Shown here piece after piece: positions 7,153-36,398 of a stretch of 56,576 nucleotides of DNA. Below the pieces are notes generated by a model. It was not told where the DNA came from. It saw only the letters and a program-made list of their open reading frames with translations, and did not search any database. This DNA is from Verrucomicrobiales bacterium (GTDB lineage Bacteria; Verrucomicrobiota; Verrucomicrobiia; Verrucomicrobiales; DEV007), in NCBI GenBank assembly GCA_028033615.1, contig JAOFDG010000005.1, forward strand, positions 1 to 56,576. Direction: 5' to 3'. Position numbers and translations under genes: made by a program. Position 1 is the first letter of the stretch. Every line of letters starts with the position of its first letter.

Positions 7153-8247
7153 ATGAGCCTTCGTTTAATAATTGCATGTGGTGGAACTGGAGGCCATCTA
7201 TTCCCGGGAATTGCTGTTGCCGAGGCGCTAATTGATAAGGGAGGAGAACCTCTCCTAATAATTTCGAAAAAAGAAATTGATGCTTTGGCTATGCAGGGAC
7301 ACAGCAATATAAATTATGAATGCTTAGCATCTATTGGAATGCCAAAGTTTTATTCTCCCAAGATGATTAAATTTCTGAGTAGTTTTTTTGTAAGTTACCG
7401 GAAAAGTAAAAATATACTGAAAAGTTTTAAAGCTGATGCCGTCTTGGGTATGGGAGGGTTTACCTCTTTGCCACCATTGCTTGCAGGTAGAGCTAATAGA
7501 ACTAAAAACTTTATTCATGAATCGAATGCTTTTCCGGGTAAGGCAAACCGAGTCGCGTCACGTTGGGCTGATCATATTCTTTTGGGAATGGAGCCGTGCG
7601 GAAGTTATTTCAAGGATAAAAATTTTGAGGTGGTAGGAACACCTCTGAGGTCAGTTCTAAGAAAAGAGTATGATAAAACTGAAGCTATACAACATTTCGG
7701 ACTCAATCCTGACAAGAAGACTATTTTGGTAATGGGAGGTAGTCAAGGTGCTCAGGTGCTAAACTCTACCATTATTCAAAATCTAAATAAAATTTATGAA
7801 GCTGGTATTCAGCTTTTACATATTACAGGCCCTGCAGATTTTGAAAGAGTAAAATCACATTATGGAGAGTTTTCGAATTTTTCATGTGTTATCCCGTTCT
7901 CTAGTGAAATGCATTTAGCCTACAGTGTATCAGATATTGCAATTGTCAGATCGGGTGCGTCAAGCTTGGCTGAAATATCAGCCTATTCGATTCCCTCAAT
8001 TTTGGTTCCTTATCCATTTGCAACTGATGATCATCAAACTTTAAATGCAAATCACTACGTAAAAAATGGCGCAGCCTTCCTTTTGCCTGAGAATAAACTT
8101 AACGCAAATTCGCTTTTTGAAATTCTGGATCAATTATTCGATGAAAATAACGAAAAATATAAGAACATGAAATCATCAATGCAGAGTCTTTCGGTTGTAG
8201 ACTCTGCTGAGAGGATATGCGAAAAAATTAACAATCATTGTAATTGA
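7153..8247 (+). CDS. murG: UDP-GlcNAc:lipid I GlcNAc transferase
   Basis: Peripheral GT28 enzyme at the inner face of the membrane that converts lipid I to lipid II. The 364 residues show the N-terminal glycine-rich motif CGGTGGHLFPGIAVAEAL, GMGGFTSLPPLLAG, HESNAFPGKANR, the second glycine-rich loop GGSQGAQVLN near 196, and the donor-binding RSGASSLAEIS and PYPFATDDHQTLNA segments. The ATG at 7153 lies 4 bases after ftsW. The TGA stop overlaps the TTG start of the murC-murB gene. All recognised motifs are intact. Confidence 0.97.
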   Translation: MSLRLIIACGGTGGHLFPGIAVAEALIDKGGEPLLIISKKEIDALAMQGHSNINYECLASIGMPKFYSPKMIKFLSSFFVSYRKSKNILKSFKADAVLGMGGFTSLPPLLAGRANRTKNFIHESNAFPGKANRVASRWADHILLGMEPCGSYFKDKNFEVVGTPLRSVLRKEYDKTEAIQHFGLNPDKKTILVMGGSQGAQVLNSTIIQNLNKIYEAGIQLLHITGPADFERVKSHYGEFSNFSCVIPFSSEMHLAYSVSDIAIVRSGASSLAEISAYSIPSILVPYPFATDDHQTLNANHYVKNGAAFLLPENKLNANSLFEILDQLFDENNEKYKNMKSSMQSLSVVDSAERICEKINNHCN

Positions 8248-10553
8248 AAAATAATTGGTCAGATAGATTACATTCAGGAGCTCAACAACCGATTAAAATT
8301 CATTTAATCGGTGTTGCAGGTTCTGGGATGAGTGGAATCGCAGGCCTTTTATTAAGCTTGGGCCATGAAGTTAGTGGGTCAGATAAAGCAGACACAAAAG
8401 AAACTGAGCGGCTTATTAAATCTGGATTAAATTTCTGTGGGTCGCATTCTCCAAAACATGTGGATAATGTAGATTTAGTTATCTATTCTTCCGCAATCAA
8501 GCCTGGTAATGTTGTTTACGACAAGGCAATTGAAATGCGAATACCAATGCTTAGAAGGGCGGAGGCTCTCGTTGCAATAATGGCTGCAAAAAAAAGTATA
8601 ATAGTTGCAGGTACTCACGGTAAGACAACGACATCATCGTTAGCAGCAAAAGTTCTTAGGACAAGCGATTTAAAGCCTTCTCACTATGTTGGGGCAGAGG
8701 TACCTATACTTGGTACCAATGCTTTTTGGGATATGGAGGGTGATTATTTTATTGCTGAAGGTGATGAAAGCGATGGGAGTCTAGTTGGTTATGATCCAGA
8801 ATACGCAATACTATTAAATGTAGAAGAGGATCATTTAGATTATTATGAAAGTGGGATTGAGGGAATAAGAAATGTATTTAATGAATATCTCGATAAGTGT
8901 AGAAAAAAAATAATCTATTGTTCTCACGATGTAGAAGCGACGGAGCTTTGTTCAGATCGGGAGAATATAATATCTTATGGATTTGAGAAGGGTGACGACG
9001 TTCGAGGAGAAATAAAAGAAGTAAGAGAAGGTAGTACAGATTTTATTGTATATGCCGACGACCAACTTTTGGGATTGGTTACTTTAGGTATCCCAGGCAA
9101 GCACAACGTATTGAATGCACTTGCTGTAATTGCGCTTGCCACTGAATTGGGGATTGGGTTTTCTGCGATATCAAAATCAATGGCGGAATTTAGAGGGGCT
9201 CGTAGGAGGTATGATATTTTATATAAGTCATCAAATTATTCAATTGTTGATGATTATGGCCACCATCCTACAGAGATAAAGGCCACTATTGAAACAGCAA
9301 AACAACATAATCCTGAAAGGCTGATGTGTGTATTTCAGCCGCATCGCTACAGTCGAACAAAGATGATGTTGGAGAAATTCTCGACTGCCTTTACAGGTAT
9401 CGATAAATTGTTTGTCACTGATGTTTATGCAGCAGGAGAAGAGCCAATAGATGGTGCAGACGCTGATGCAATTGTTCGTTCCGTAATCCAAAAGGATGGA
9501 GTTGATGCAAAAGTATTGCCGTGCTTTGAAAGAGCTCACCATATAATTGGAGCTGAAATGAGAGCCGGCGATAACTTGTTAATTTTAGGAGCCGGAAACA
9601 TTCATGAGGTTGGATCTATCCTAGCTAGAGACCTTGAGGTTTTAGATAAGCTAAGAAGAGAGCTCGATGATCCAATGAGTGAATGTAGGTTATACGAATC
9701 AATGAGGAGACATACTACTTTAAAAGTGGGAGGACCTGCTCAGTATTGGATTGAACCAATTACAGTAGAGAGTTTTTCAAAGACGCTTAGGTTCTTTGAA
9801 CAATTAAATATTCCCGTCCGGGTGGTGGGAAGAGGATCAAATCTCTTAGTATGTGATGGAGGAATTGCCGGTGCTGTGATTCGGCCGTCAGGAGGTGAAT
9901 TTAGTGAAGTTAGTATTTCAGGTGATCTTATTACTGCAGGAGTTGGAGCTCGATTTAAAAAATTGAATAGTGCTGCAAAGAAAAATGAGATTAGAGGATT
10001 TGAGTGGATGGAGGGAATACCAGGAAACGTAGGAGGTGGTTTGAGAATGAATGCAGGAGCCATGGGAGTTGAGACCTTTGACCAAGTCGTATCAGTTAAG
10101 TTTTTAGACTCAAAGGGGGATTTGTATGAAAGGTCTGCGGAAGAGTTAAAAGCGAAGTATAGAAATGTTCCAGAATTAAAGAATAATTATGCAGTCTCTG
10201 CAGTATTTAAAGGAGATAAAGGAAGATTAAAAGATATTGAGAAGCTAACTCAAGATTCGATGGTGAAAAGAAAAGCAAGCCAACCTATTGCTGCAAGCGC
10301 AGGATGCATTTTTAAAAACCCTGATCATATTTCTGCTGGAAAATTAATAGAGGAGATGGGTATGAAAGGTTTTAAGGCTGGAGCGGCCAGAGTTTCTGAA
10401 GTTCATGGAAATTTTATAGTTAATGAAGGAGGAGCTACAGCAGAAGATGTGCTATCGCTAATTGATCAAGTCAAAAAAAATGCCTTAGAGAAATGTGGTG
10501 TGACGCTTGAAACTGAAGTGCAAATTATAGGAGAACAACAAATTACTTATTAG
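8244..10553 (+). CDS. murC/murB: MurC-MurB fusion: UDP-MurNAc:L-alanine ligase / UDP-MurNAc dehydrogenase
   Basis: Bifunctional enzyme for two consecutive steps: FAD-dependent reduction of UDP-GlcNAc-enolpyruvate (MurB) and addition of L-Ala (MurC). Residues 1-465 are MurC, with IHLIGVAGSGMSGIAG (19-34), P-loop GTHGKTTT (123-130), EGDESDGSL and EEDHLDYY. Residues 485-769 are MurB, with the FAD-binding GRGSNLLV (529-536), GIPGNVGGGLRMNAG (591-605) and the C-terminal ARVSEVHGNFIVN. The residue matching the E. coli catalytic serine in SAGSFFKNP is Cys688 here (SAGCIFKNP). The short MurB half lacks the extra loop of E. coli type, suggesting type II. The start is TTG inside the murG stop (TTGA overlap). 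Fusing the two activities fits PVC bacteria. Confidence 0.96.
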   Translation: MKNNWSDRLHSGAQQPIKIHLIGVAGSGMSGIAGLLLSLGHEVSGSDKADTKETERLIKSGLNFCGSHSPKHVDNVDLVIYSSAIKPGNVVYDKAIEMRIPMLRRAEALVAIMAAKKSIIVAGTHGKTTTSSLAAKVLRTSDLKPSHYVGAEVPILGTNAFWDMEGDYFIAEGDESDGSLVGYDPEYAILLNVEEDHLDYYESGIEGIRNVFNEYLDKCRKKIIYCSHDVEATELCSDRENIISYGFEKGDDVRGEIKEVREGSTDFIVYADDQLLGLVTLGIPGKHNVLNALAVIALATELGIGFSAISKSMAEFRGARRRYDILYKSSNYSIVDDYGHHPTEIKATIETAKQHNPERLMCVFQPHRYSRTKMMLEKFSTAFTGIDKLFVTDVYAAGEEPIDGADADAIVRSVIQKDGVDAKVLPCFERAHHIIGAEMRAGDNLLILGAGNIHEVGSILARDLEVLDKLRRELDDPMSECRLYESMRRHTTLKVGGPAQYWIEPITVESFSKTLRFFEQLNIPVRVVGRGSNLLVCDGGIAGAVIRPSGGEFSEVSISGDLITAGVGARFKKLNSAAKKNEIRGFEWMEGIPGNVGGGLRMNAGAMGVETFDQVVSVKFLDSKGDLYERSAEELKAKYRNVPELKNNYAVSAVFKGDKGRLKDIEKLTQDSMVKRKASQPIAASAGCIFKNPDHISAGKLIEEMGMKGFKAGAARVSEVHGNFIVNEGGATAEDVLSLIDQVKKNALEKCGVTLETEVQIIGEQQITY

Positions 10554-11500: not shown

Positions 11501-12562
11501 ATGAAAAAGAATAAACGCTCATTATCATCAAAGGGACACTCTCGGATGCGAAAAAGAAAAGTAACCCGTAAAGGTGTTAAGCAGAGTTTGAATGTAAGAG
11601 TAAACTCTAAGAAGTCGGTCAGTGTTAGAAGAAAAATTTTCTTTGTGAGGTTTTTAAAATGGACTGCACTAACAGCTATGATGCTTGTCGTTTTATTTGG
11701 TTCATACAGAGGAGTTGATAGATTCTTGTTTGAGAGTCCAAAATTTGCGTTGAGTAATATCAATTATAAAACTGATGGAGAGTTGCCACAATCAAGGGTT
11801 CTTAAAAATTCCGGTATTGTATTAGGTCAGAATATACTTCGAATTAATATAAAAGATGCAAAAGAGAGAATTCTTAATGAATTGCCAATGATTAAAGAAG
11901 TCGAAATTATTAGGCAGATGCCTGGTGATATGACTATTAAGGTTTCTGAAAGGGTGCCAGTTGCATGGTTAAGTGGACAAAATACACCAGAATCTGACCT
12001 TAGAATTATTGGAGGTATTTTGCTTGATAGTGGAGGTAATGCTTTTGCTGCAGAAGAACCTGTTTTAAGATTTAAGAGCCTCCCAGTGATGATTTCTTCG
12101 GAATATTCTAAAGTGAGCCCTGGCTATGAACTAAATTCTTTGCCTGTTCAAAAAGGACTTGAGATTGCCTTAAATTTTTACGACTCATTTAGAAATTCAC
12201 CAGTTATTTTGGAATCTTTGCACTCCAGAAATGACTTTTCAATTATAGGATATATAAACACAGGAGCTGAGATAACCTTTGGATTTGATGATATTCCAAG
12301 GCAGGTTAGTGATTTGAAGCTTTTACTAGCTGAGGCGACTCGAAGGGGTAAAGTTTTAGCTGAAGCAAATGTTATGGTTAAGAGGAATACTCCAGTAAAA
12401 TTTGCTAATAATTTCATATCAGATTCTACTGCGCCTAGAGCTGTTCCAGTGACGACTAGATCTGTCCCTAACAATCAAGGAAGCAAAAAGAAATCTAAAA
12501 CGCATAAAAAGTTAAATAAAGTGGTCAAAATTCCTAGGGCGCTTCCTATTGATGCTGAATGA
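11501..12562 (+). CDS. ftsQ: Cell division protein FtsQ/DivIB with C-terminal IPRA motif tail
   Basis: Bitopic divisome protein linking early and late division proteins. A very basic cytoplasmic tail (residues 1-52) precedes one transmembrane helix (about 53-68). A POTRA domain (about 82-152) ends with the typical PGDMTIKVSERVPVAWL, and the FtsQ beta domain runs to about 300. The last 45 residues are a Lys/Ser/Pro-rich extension containing APRAVPV (311-317) and ending exactly in IPRALPIDAE (344-353), which matches residues 225-234 of the LysM protein. In E. coli the FtsQ C-terminal region contacts FtsB, so a tail motif there could be a partner site; that extrapolation is mine. The start ATG is 5 bases after ddl. 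Confidence 0.9.
   Translation: MKKNKRSLSSKGHSRMRKRKVTRKGVKQSLNVRVNSKKSVSVRRKIFFVRFLKWTALTAMMLVVLFGSYRGVDRFLFESPKFALSNINYKTDGELPQSRVLKNSGIVLGQNILRINIKDAKERILNELPMIKEVEIIRQMPGDMTIKVSERVPVAWLSGQNTPESDLRIIGGILLDSGGNAFAAEEPVLRFKSLPVMISSEYSKVSPGYELNSLPVQKGLEIALNFYDSFRNSPVILESLHSRNDFSIIGYINTGAEITFGFDDIPRQVSDLKLLLAEATRRGKVLAEANVMVKRNTPVKFANNFISDSTAPRAVPVTTRSVPNNQGSKKKSKTHKKLNKVVKIPRALPIDAE
12431..12451 (+). other. Partial copy of the shared IPRA motif (FtsQ residues 311-317)
   Basis: Encodes APRAVPV in the FtsQ C-terminal extension, matching the first seven positions of the LysM-protein motif in five residues with conservative changes elsewhere. It is followed by a Thr/Arg/Asn-rich spacer before the full copy at the C-terminus. 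Confidence 0.4.
12530..12559 (+). other. Copy 2 of the shared IPRAxPxxAE motif (FtsQ C-terminus)
   Basis: Encodes IPRALPIDAE, the final ten residues of FtsQ, directly before the TGA stop. Identical to the LysM-protein copy at seven of ten positions (I, P, R, A, P, A, E); the I/L and V/I differences are conservative. Confidence 0.6.
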
Positions 12563-12586
12563 GAGGCATAAAAGGAAGTCGTTTTT
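12542..12586 (+). terminator. Weak hairpin plus T-run after ftsQ (possible attenuator)
   Basis: CTTCCT (12542-12547) can pair with AGGAAG (12573-12578), with a nested ATGC/GCAT pair, followed closely by a run of seven T. The stem is short and starts within the ftsQ coding end, so it would be a leaky terminator or attenuator between ftsQ and ftsA at most. Confidence 0.25.
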
Positions 12587-12616
12587 TTGTTTCTAATATC
12601 ATCTAAGGGTTGACTA

Positions 12617-12655
12617 TTTTGCCATCTTTGTAAACGCTATGCGTAGATGGCAAAA
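12617..12655 (+). promoter_or_regulatory. Inverted repeat enclosing the ftsA start codon
   Basis: TTTTGCCATCT (12617-12627) is the exact reverse complement of AGATGGCAAAA (12645-12655). Inside, ACGC (12634-12637) pairs with GCGT (12641-12644) around a TAT loop, contiguous with the right arm; a six-base bulge lies on the left. The ftsA ATG (12647-12649) is in the right arm, so in RNA this hairpin would hide the start codon. A TTGACT hexamer at 12610-12615 just upstream could be a -35 element, but no good -10 follows. Function (translation control, operator or coincidence) is unproven. Confidence 0.55.
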
Positions 12656-13879
12656 CCTAAAATCTATGCGGGCTTAGAAATAGGGACGTCAACTATATGT
12701 GTCGTCGTAGGTGAGGTGTCGGGAAATGGTTCAATCAAGATTTTAGGAATTGGCCAAGCTCCCTCTCGAGGCGTACGAAAAGGTGAGATAGTGGACTTTG
12801 AGACGGCACAAACATGTCTTAATGATGCTCTCGTAGAGGCAGAAGAAAAATCTGACGTCATGATTAGTAATGTTTACTTGGCGATTTCGGGCTCTCACAT
12901 TGAAAGCTTATGTAATAAAGGATCCATTCGTATTCCTGCAGCTGATGAGGTTAGTGAGATTACGGAGGAGGATCTTGATGAGGTTAGGGAGATTGCTAGA
13001 GATATCAAATTGCCTCCAGAGAATGTGTTTCTTCATAGTATAATAAGAGATTATTATGTAGATGGTCAGGAAAAGGTTCAAAATCCTGTAGGACGGCAAG
13101 GGGAGGTTGTAGAGGCGGATTATCATATCATTCATGGAATAAAGACTCGTTTACAAAATACCATTCGTTGTGTTCGAGAAATTCCACTTACAGTTGAAGA
13201 GGTGGTTTTTAGCCCAATTGCCGCTGCTCAGGTCATGCTTTCACGAGAACATAAGGATAGAGGGGCTTTGCTAATTGATATTGGAGGAGGTGTAACTGAT
13301 TATGTTATGTATTCTGGAGGTTCCGTTGCTCAATCCGGCTGTGTTGGTGTCGGAGGAGATCATATCACTAATGATATTTCGGTGGTAATGAAAATCCCTA
13401 TCACTAGGGCAGAAAAATTAAAGGTTGAGCATGGTGGAGTATTAATTGAGGAGAGTGTTTCCGATTCGGTGGTCCTAGAAGATGATCCTCTTTCTTCAAG
13501 TTTTGAGATTGATAAAGAAATGCTCAATCAAATCATTAATGCAAGAGCAACTGAACTCTTTGAGCAATTAAAAGAGAGAATTACAAAACATGATGATTTG
13601 AATACTCTGGGAGCAGGTGTTTTCCTCACTGGGGGAGCTAGTAAATTAAAAGATATTGATAAATTAGCTGAGCAGATTTTAGGCCTTCCTGTTTGTCTTG
13701 CCAGAATCAATAGCATGAGTGGTCCTGCTGCCCCATTTGAAAACCCTCAACTAGCGACGTCGATGGGTTTGATTCGATATGCCCAAATGATTGATTCCGA
13801 TAAATCAGATAGTGATAAATTAATTACAAAAATTGGGAAAAAGCTTGGAGGAATTTTTGGAGGAGCTAATCTAGAATAA
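12647..13879 (+). CDS. ftsA: Cell division protein FtsA
   Basis: Actin-like ATPase that tethers FtsZ to the membrane and recruits later division proteins. The 410 residues begin with the phosphate-1 motif AGLEIGTSTICVVVGEV, contain the FtsA-specific 1C subdomain region, the phosphate-2 motif LLIDIGGGVTDY near 205 and the adenosine motif GVFLTGGASKL near 322. The C-terminus (KKLGGIFGGANLE) is a plausible short amphipathic membrane-targeting helix. The 84-base gap to ftsQ is the largest in the dcw block and holds the inverted repeat that covers this start codon; no clear Shine-Dalgarno sequence is visible. ftsZ follows after 29 bases. Confidence 0.96.
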   Translation: MAKPKIYAGLEIGTSTICVVVGEVSGNGSIKILGIGQAPSRGVRKGEIVDFETAQTCLNDALVEAEEKSDVMISNVYLAISGSHIESLCNKGSIRIPAADEVSEITEEDLDEVREIARDIKLPPENVFLHSIIRDYYVDGQEKVQNPVGRQGEVVEADYHIIHGIKTRLQNTIRCVREIPLTVEEVVFSPIAAAQVMLSREHKDRGALLIDIGGGVTDYVMYSGGSVAQSGCVGVGGDHITNDISVVMKIPITRAEKLKVEHGGVLIEESVSDSVVLEDDPLSSSFEIDKEMLNQIINARATELFEQLKERITKHDDLNTLGAGVFLTGGASKLKDIDKLAEQILGLPVCLARINSMSGPAAPFENPQLATSMGLIRYAQMIDSDKSDSDKLITKIGKKLGGIFGGANLE

Positions 13880-13908: not shown

Positions 13909-15273
13909 ATGCTAGAATACGAGAGAAAACCTGCAGAAGGAGCCCCAGCACTGGAGCCTGAAAAAGTCAAAGTTATTGGTATTGGAGGCGCTGGGTGTAA
14001 TGTCTTGGACAGGATAGCTCTTCATGAAAGAATTGATGAGGGCGAGCTTTTAGCTCTCAACACAGATGTAAGGGATTTGGTTTCATCAGTTGCTCAGGAT
14101 ACTATTCAGCTTGGTAAGAAATTAACGCAGGGTTTGGGGGCTGGGGGAGACCCTGAACTTGGTGAGGAAGCTGCTGAGGAAGCAACTAATGAGATTAAGG
14201 AAGTTCTAAAAGGTAAGTCGTTAGTCTTTATATGTGCAGGTCTTGGTGGAGGAACTGGTTCTGGTGCTGCTCCAATTATCGCAAAACTTGCCAAGCAGGC
14301 AGGAGCGTTCGTTGTTGGTTTCGTCATGATGCCATTTTCCTTCGAAGGTCGCAGAAGGTTACAACAAGCGAATGATGCATTAACTCAGATGGAGGAATGC
14401 ACAGACGCGCTAATGACTTTTGAGAATGATAGAATGGGAGGATTAGTTGTGCCCAAGGAAGGAATTCAGCAAGCCTTTGCCGCAGCAGATCAAATCATTG
14501 GTCAGAGTGTTGGCGCTATCATCAAGTTAGTCGTCCAACCTGGATTAATTCGAATTGGCATGGATGACCTTTTGACTGCACTTAAGAATGAAAGTTCACG
14601 CTGTCTTTTTGGTTATGGTCAAGCCTCTGGTGATAATAGGGCTCAAGAAGCTCTTAAAGCAGCTCTTAAAAACCCACTGCTTGATAAAGGTCAAATGCTT
14701 AACCAGTCGACTAGCTTAATAGCGTATATTAGCGGAGGGGAGTCGACCACGCTCTTTGAAGTTGAGCTTCTAATGAATGAGATGTCTAAGTACGTTAACG
14801 ATGAAGCTCATATATTATTCGGAGTTTCCTCGGATCAGAAACAAGGAGATAATTTAAGCTTAACTATTATAAGCTCTGTCGGTAAACTAGGTGGCTCGAC
14901 GGCTGATATAAAGATAAAAAAGGAAGAGGCAGTCTCTGAAGAGACTCCAAATGAGGAGAGTTCAGTTTCTGAGGGAGAGTTGCCGGAGCCGTTTGTGTCA
15001 ACTGATGGAAATGAAGAAGTCGATGAGGAAGAAGTCGATGAGGAAGAAGTCGATGAGGAAGAAGTCGATGAGGAAGAAGTCGATGAGGAAGAAGTCGATG
15101 AGGAGGAAGTCGATGAGGAGGAAGTCGATGAGGAGGAAAGCGTTGTGGAACAACAGGATCTATTGCCCGAGAAAAGGTCTGGAAGAGGCCGATTTGAAAA
15201 AGCTGAGCCAAGTGTCACTGACGATGGAGAAGATCTAGATGTCCCTAGTTTCTTAAGGAAAAAGAAGAAATAG
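13909..15273 (+). CDS. ftsZ: Cell division GTPase FtsZ with altered T7 loop and EVDEE-repeat linker
   Basis: Tubulin-like GTPase forming the Z-ring. The 454 residues contain VIGIGGAGCNV (22-32), ALNTD (49-53), the tubulin signature GGGTGSGAAP (113-122) and PFSFEGRRR. The T7 synergy loop, normally GLINVDFAD, reads GLIRIGMDD (212-220): the Asn and the first catalytic Asp are replaced by Arg and Gly, while the last Asp is kept. The linker after about residue 330 is acidic and includes eight perfect EVDEE repeats (residues 370-409). The C-terminal peptide DLDVPSFLRKKKK matches the usual FtsA-binding tail. The Shine-Dalgarno-like aaggt lies just before the ATG. Upstream ftsA and the normal tail argue that it is the functional FtsZ. 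Confidence 0.96.
   Translation: MLEYERKPAEGAPALEPEKVKVIGIGGAGCNVLDRIALHERIDEGELLALNTDVRDLVSSVAQDTIQLGKKLTQGLGAGGDPELGEEAAEEATNEIKEVLKGKSLVFICAGLGGGTGSGAAPIIAKLAKQAGAFVVGFVMMPFSFEGRRRLQQANDALTQMEECTDALMTFENDRMGGLVVPKEGIQQAFAAADQIIGQSVGAIIKLVVQPGLIRIGMDDLLTALKNESSRCLFGYGQASGDNRAQEALKAALKNPLLDKGQMLNQSTSLIAYISGGESTTLFEVELLMNEMSKYVNDEAHILFGVSSDQKQGDNLSLTIISSVGKLGGSTADIKIKKEEAVSEETPNEESSVSEGELPEPFVSTDGNEEVDEEEVDEEEVDEEEVDEEEVDEEEVDEEEVDEEEVDEEESVVEQQDLLPEKRSGRGRFEKAEPSVTDDGEDLDVPSFLRKKKK
15016..15135 (+). repeat. Eight tandem 15-bp repeats in ftsZ encoding EVDEE
   Basis: The unit gaagtcgatgagga(a/g) is repeated eight times without interruption. The first five copies end GAA and the last three end GAG, the only variation, which points to recent stepwise duplication. 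Each unit keeps the reading frame, so copy-number change alters only the FtsZ linker length. Open frames seen here in other phases and on the minus strand are artefacts of this repeat. Confidence 0.95.
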
Positions 15274-26456: not shown

Positions 26457-26676
26457 GAAAATATTGATTAGCCTATCTTAGTCGCCTGAGCCCTCAAAGC
26501 TCTAGCAAACCTTATACTAATGATTTGTCTAATTAAGGGGTACGTAAAGTGTATTATTAAAAGTATGCGATTGATTGTTCATATGTTATTCATTCAACCA
26601 GAATATATAACGCAAAAACGGCACCTAAAGATTTGGTGCCGTTTTTGATTAAGTGTTTAGAAGTCAGTATAGGATT
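26457..26676. other. Gap between sigma factor and CotH gene
   Basis: 220 bases between the stop of the sigma-factor gene and the start of the CotH/lamin-tail gene, both minus strand. It contains the strong palindromic terminator at 26614-26646. The remainder must hold the CotH-gene promoter, but I see no convincing -35/-10 pair. Confidence 0.5.
26614..26646 (-). terminator. Strong intrinsic terminator after the sigma-70 gene
   Basis: AAAAACGGCACC (26614-26625) and GGTGCCGTTTTT (26635-26646) form a perfect 12-bp stem with a nine-base loop, with A and T runs at the two ends. It can work in both directions; on the minus strand it lies 31 bases past the sigma-factor stop. Confidence 0.85.
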
Positions 26677-36308: not shown

Positions 36309-36360
36309 GTAAATATCTTAGGAAAGGTTTTCCTTAATCTTTTTTTATACAAATCATAAA

Positions 36361-36398
36361 AAACACCGCACCAGATCGAATTCTGGTGCGGTGTTTTT
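36361..36398 (+). terminator. Strong intrinsic terminator after DUF1080 gene
   Basis: AAACACCGCACCAGA (36361-36375) and TCTGGTGCGGTGTTT (36382-36396) form a perfect 15-bp stem around a six-base loop, then TT. It has flanking A and T runs and can act in both directions. Confidence 0.9.

Follow-up and report, generated by a model that had tools for sequence, protein, structure and literature searches.

A probable ftsA promoter and a predicted genus-specific hairpin over the ftsA start codon in an uncultured marine Verrucomicrobiales bacterium

In an uncultured marine bacterium of the Verrucomicrobiales, a perfect inverted repeat spans the start of the cell-division gene ftsA. Does this repeat act in RNA, where it could hide the start codon, in DNA, or not at all? 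E. coli cells with too much FtsA cannot divide, a defect that extra FtsZ corrects (PMC5508204). We analyzed the whole 56,576-nucleotide stretch of DNA that carries the locus (the window). The repeat described in the original prediction is exact: its two 11-nt arms form 11 of 11 pairs across 17 nt, a further pair (ACGC, 12634–12637, and GCGT, 12641–12644) lies inside, and the right arm contains the ftsA ATG (12647–12649). Its setting was also described correctly, as the 84 nt between ftsQ and ftsA are the only large gap of the dcw block, with all remaining gaps, from 1219 to the ftsZ stop, at most 29 nt.

11501–12562, + strand: ftsQ, the upstream gene, an open reading frame with a POTRA_1 domain (Pfam PF08478, E 2.5e-10); its stop is 84 nt 5' of the ftsA ATG
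12617–12627, + strand: left arm of the inverted repeat, TTTTGCCATCT, between the putative -35 and -10 regions described below
12645–12655, + strand: right arm, AGATGGCAAAA, with the ftsA ATG and codons 2–3 (Ala-Lys)
12647–13879, + strand: ftsA (Pfam FtsA PF14450, E 1e-33, and SHS2_FTSA)
13909–15273, + strand: ftsZ, the downstream gene (Pfam PF00091 and PF12327)

The folding calculation that had been proposed as a check gave -22.1 kcal/mol for RNA 12600–12680 (z -2.85), a value reached by 4 of 200 shuffles. Perfect inverted repeats with arms of at least 11 and loops of 3–30 occur three times in the window, compared to a mean of 0.5 (range 0–3) over 20 dinucleotide shuffles; the two besides the ftsA repeat are terminator-like. 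Since three repeats of this length class are present, the length alone is weak evidence, and it is the position that stands out. The ftsA start is the costliest to open among the 43 window start codons scored (15.4 kcal/mol; next 9.8, median 4.1), and in RNA starting upstream of 12617 the ATG is predicted to be fully paired, with an unpaired probability of 0.00. Both values favor the mechanism first proposed, a simple damper in which the hairpin resides in the sole ftsA mRNA and sets its translation low; the comparison with relatives, below, bears on it differently.

A search of 12300–12900 with the Rfam 15 covariance models returned a single match (MIR6274, 21 bits compared to a gathering cut-off of 80, E 0.25), so that a catalogued RNA family, such as a riboswitch, thermometer or leader, was rejected on score. 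A repeated element or regulon was rejected as well, the best other match of the region in its own genome having an E of 0.8, and a viral-contig scan found nothing.

The relatives search gave a match in all 95 genomes, although for some the listing shows only a weak match to a related protein with the actin fold. We read 71 segments upstream of ftsA from 70 of these genomes; the 25 left out include seven without a full ftsA match among the matches listed (G002, G004 and G007 of the host's genus, g1, and G031, G032, G040 and G045). In 14 of the 70, belonging to five genera (seven genomes of g1, four of g17 and one each of g6, g12 and g15), a box with the clade consensus TTCTRGGGGTTGACT, or a form near it, places TTGACT 37–42 nt 5' of the ftsA ATG. 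Two of the g1 genomes are identical in this stretch to others (G003 to G000, the host genome, and G009 to G006), and the 12 distinct sequences were aligned; GTTGACT is invariant across them, and the spacer beyond it varies. Of the box genomes, 13 are represented in a tree of 30 FtsA proteins, and they make up one side of a branch with support of 100/99. A strict pattern for this family of boxes matched in 11 of 74 genomes, at ftsA in ten, with G096 as the eleventh, and its reversed control matched two. Outside the box clade, G050 has TTGACT at -37 and lacks the remainder of the box. In the sister genome G016, TTGACT is found at -97, where ftsQ stops, and the leader of ftsA is longer; the promoter may be the same one with about 55 nt added.

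12542–12578, + strand: candidate weak terminator-like stem at the ftsQ end, before the T-run (-12.2 kcal/mol by folding)
12582–12588, + strand: run of 7 T, an UP-like tract or terminator tail, 28 nt 5' of TTGACT, from comparison of relatives
12602–12615, + strand: conserved box, TCTAAGGGTTGACT, from comparison of relatives
12610–12615, + strand: TTGACT, the putative -35 of an ftsA promoter
12630–12636, + strand: GTAAACG, a conserved GTWWWCG-like segment in the alignment and candidate non-canonical -10 region
12643–12647, + strand: predicted transcription start

The box overlaps the end of ftsQ in several genomes, and could have been conserved merely as the FtsQ C-terminus. This explanation is rejected by the reading frames. 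The box is read in frame as the end of ftsQ (ILGVD-stop) in G014, G023 and G020; ftsQ of G025 and G039 runs into the box in a different frame and ends at a TGA inside TTGACT; that of G044 and G033 ends with a TAG at the front of the box, immediately 5' of GGGTTGACT; and the box of all seven g1 genomes is wholly non-coding. This comparison is limited by short flanks in many outgroup rows and, in G044, by a contig end that cuts ftsQ. The letters of the box thus stay while the reading frame of ftsQ changes, which argues for selection on the DNA. A DNA element that survives while the frame of the gene overlapping it shifts provides a natural control for selection at that level.

Given its conservation as DNA, TTGACT at 12610–12615 most probably serves as the -35 of an ftsA promoter. 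An ftsA promoter is the simplest reading of a box conserved as DNA with T runs upstream, and we regard its placement at 12602–12636 as probable. No canonical TATAAT was found 17–18 nt past TTGACT, and GTAAACG of the host is loosely -10-like. The GTWWWCG-like segment lies 14–17 nt after TTGACT in the aligned sequences, and the spacer from TTGACT to TWWWCG is 15–16 in four of the five sequence types of the g1 clade-A genomes and 18 elsewhere. A consensus promoter and terminator scan, uninformative here, reported no promoter at the ftsA start. A run of six to eight T at -70 to -65, 28–30 nt 5' of TTGACT, is present in 7/7 g1 genomes and in none of the 64 other segments; such runs occur within -80 to -45 of 19 of 448 sampled gene starts of the congener G008. 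The stem preceding this run in the host has only weak counterparts in the remaining g1 sequences (-4.4 to -5.8), and a strict terminator scan found none at the ftsQ end. A weak terminator there, in the host genome only, is possible on the folding model.

Standard promoter geometry, that is, the usual distance from a -35 to the start, places the start of transcription at about 12643–12647. A start after the TTGACT had been named as an alternative in the original prediction, and one downstream of 12627 as a finding that would count against the hairpin by removing its left arm. The former gains from the conservation of TTGACT at a nearly fixed distance from the ATG, although the start itself is a prediction and the -10 is non-canonical; the latter, predicted from the same TTGACT, bites in part. 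Since such a start would remove the left arm, the hairpin would act mainly on RNA that reads through from ftsQ. For the damper, the conserved -35-like box thus predicts an ftsA mRNA without the left arm, and a wide clade has the box without the hairpin. We consider the damper very improbable, despite the predicted pairing and opening cost of the start codon.

No Shine-Dalgarno (SD) sequence precedes the ftsA ATG in AACGCTATGCGTAG. We compared 448 uncurated starts in 736 kb of G008, each being the first ATG of a long frame, with 3009 internal ATGs. Near these starts SD words show no enrichment, with GGAG, GAGG or AGGA at -8 to -5 in 4 compared to 39.0 expected; as the control is coding DNA, the depletion should not be over-read, and the point is the lack of enrichment. 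TTGAC is enriched at -49 to -36 (13 compared to 2.7 expected), as are -10-like words at -16 to -9 (53 compared to 10.4 expected; about 2-fold further upstream). The G008 starts combine an absence of SD words with -10-like words near the ATG, a hint that many transcripts have short leaders or none. Leaderless mRNAs are defined by a 5' UTR under 8 nt, and the order-mates Akkermansia and the verrucomicrobium IMCC26134 appear among organisms that are SD-scarce but have a conserved anti-SD (PMC10783764). The ftsA mRNA would resemble leaderless mRNAs in its 5' UTR, predicted at 0–4 nt from the position of the -35, and it resembles them in lacking an SD. It differs in that its 5' end is deduced here from a -35 and that its -10 is non-canonical.

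The hairpin has a narrower distribution than the box. Folding covered the aligned sequences and 12 non-box segments, and the opening energy was scored for 20 of the 71 segments. From -38 to +9, folding energies are -14.7 to -20.2 kcal/mol for the five distinct sequences of g1, which places all of them in the bottom 1.1% of the 448 G008 starts; those of the seven distinct outgroup sequences are -1.7 to -7.2. When upstream letters were shuffled with TTGACT and the codons fixed, p was 0.0045, 0.0205, 0/2000, 0/2000 and 0.001 for G000, G001, G006, G005 and G008, respectively, and 0.45–0.985 for the outgroup sequences. With the genus-invariant columns fixed and the variable upstream columns randomized, the g1 values, in the same order, were 0.003, 0.025, 0.0033, 0/3000 and 0.0067. 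The hairpin is genus-specific, with strong folding in g1 and none in the sister genera. The g1 data represent three lineages and five distinct sequences of shared ancestry, among which G000 alone was chosen for its hairpin; G006 and the G005/G008 pair are unselected.

The folding is achieved with different left arms: TTTTGCCATCT in G000, GCTATC/GATGGC in G006, and TTAGC and GTCATATATAGCG in G005. From G000 to G001, three outer pairs are lost with the right arm unchanged, and in G006 one inner pair of the G000 helix is lost and other helices form instead. Covariation on the G000 helix was not detected (51.5% of cells paired compared to 50.1% in shuffles) and was dropped as a proof of structure. 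Of the expectation that relatives would preserve the pairing by compensatory changes, strong folding is kept throughout g1 and the exact pairs are not, those lost in G001 being uncompensated. Sequestration of the ATG in RNA likewise stands as a prediction, with strong folding around the ATG in 5/5 distinct g1 sequences, and not as a set of pairs that is conserved or compensated.

Opening the start from -3 to +12 in read-through RNA costs 15.4, 10.0, 11.0, 6.9 and 9.8 kcal/mol in the five distinct g1 sequences. The value is reached by 1 of the 448 G008 starts for G000, 7 for G006, 13 for G001, 15 for G008 and 62 for G005, so that G005 is unexceptional by this measure. In g1 RNA starting at -4 the cost is 3.9–5.6 kcal/mol, and up to 8.0 if it starts at -6; the transcript from ftsA's own promoter would therefore also be partly structured.

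These comparisons bear most directly on a serious rival, in which the promoter is the sole functional element and the hairpin an incidental by-product of an AT-rich promoter beside a fixed Met-Ala-Lys start, plus chance. It would account for the same promoter without a hairpin in 7/7 distinct outgroup sequences, for exact pairs that are neither conserved nor compensated, for left-arm changes that break pairs within the close pairs G000/G001 and G005/G008, and for the ordinary opening cost of G005. It explains less readily why all five distinct g1 sequences fold strongly through different left arms, beyond both nulls. We give this rival a substantial chance, well short of even.

A second rival places the function in the DNA, with the dyads at the promoter as an operator bound by a regulator of ftsA transcription. 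The repeats do overlap a probable promoter, g1 retains CGCTAT and a TAG immediately 5' of the ATG, and the comparison of strands is mixed: the + strand RNA is the stabler in three of the five distinct g1 sequences, and the - strand has a slight advantage in G000 and G001, which a dyad acting in DNA would permit. However, the dyads of the three g1 lineages have no common sequence, and a search of 13 genomes for GGGGTTGACTAR found no second non-coding copy of the box, its nine matches being six at ftsA and three without start-like context, apparently within coding frames. An operator is therefore improbable.

Our best explanation, to which we give nearly an even chance, is that ftsA has its own near-leaderless promoter and that, in g1, a hairpin blocks translation of read-through RNA. 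It draws on the conservation of the box as DNA, its position, the lack of an SD signal and the strong folding across g1, and it supposes a start site, leaderless translation, and a read-through RNA that is silenced. The promoter would start RNA almost on the ATG, giving a near-leaderless mRNA in a lineage whose translation does not depend on SD sequences. In g1, the region spanning the -35 through codon 3 would fold in RNA reading through from ftsQ and bury the ATG. As the left arm is promoter spacer, ftsA's own transcript, if it starts as predicted, cannot form the hairpin. The ftsQ stop is 69–84 nt from the ftsA ATG in g1, compared to 31–45 in the other box genera, a distance that would let the hairpin fold behind the last ftsQ ribosome. 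If read-through RNA is poorly translated, FtsA output would be set by the ftsA promoter. We regard that promoter as fairly secure, and the function of the hairpin as insecure; a functional block of read-through translation is a tentative proposal that, on these folding models, we put at somewhat under even.

A stronger form would have the position of initiation alone decide FtsA synthesis, the ftsQ read-through RNA being silent and the short RNA active: in an SD-less lineage, a leaderless internal promoter would be combined with a start-codon hairpin that arose as the ftsQ–ftsA gap lengthened and was kept as left arms turned over, without pairwise covariation. We find this version doubtful.

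Comparable arrangements are known. The transposase genes of IS10 and IS50 are shielded from outside transcription by terminal fold-back; there, as predicted for ftsA, the gene's own promoter starts inside the repeat, and read-through RNA folds and is not translated. The ftsA locus differs in that no mobile element was seen there, and its repeat is not an element's terminal repeat. In phage T4, gene e (lysozyme), soc, 49 and I-TevI have the start codon or SD within a helix in long transcripts, and for gene e the 5' strand of the helix harbors a late promoter, whose short transcript lacks that strand and is translated, the long form being reduced 100-fold (PMC3014915). The ftsA ATG is similarly predicted to lie in a stable helix of a long transcript, with a putative promoter of its own overlapping the 5' strand, which the short transcript would lose. 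In contrast to gene e, ftsA is a chromosomal gene for division in a bacterium that shows no SD signal, its start site and effect are predictions, and its hairpin pairs are not conserved beyond close relatives. None of the titles and abstract openings that a literature search returned describes this design for ftsA.

If our preferred reading holds, RNA from the upstream gene would be hard to translate and RNA from ftsA's own promoter would not. Such an uncoupling of ftsA from the ftsQ transcript, if true, would show how the dose of one gene in a packed division operon can be set without SD control.

Additional features were observed in the window. FtsZ carries an acidic EEVDEE repeat near its C-terminus, followed by DVPSFLRKKKK, according to its translation. 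MurC and MurB are fused in a single protein of 769 residues (8244–10553, by Pfam); a murCB fusion is mentioned for Verrucomicrobium spinosum, a species open to targeted mutagenesis (PMC12283558). A perfect 17-bp inverted repeat with a 6-nt loop and flanking A and T runs, terminator-like on both strands, is located at 36359–36398, and a 13-bp inverted repeat at 26613–26647 resembles it.
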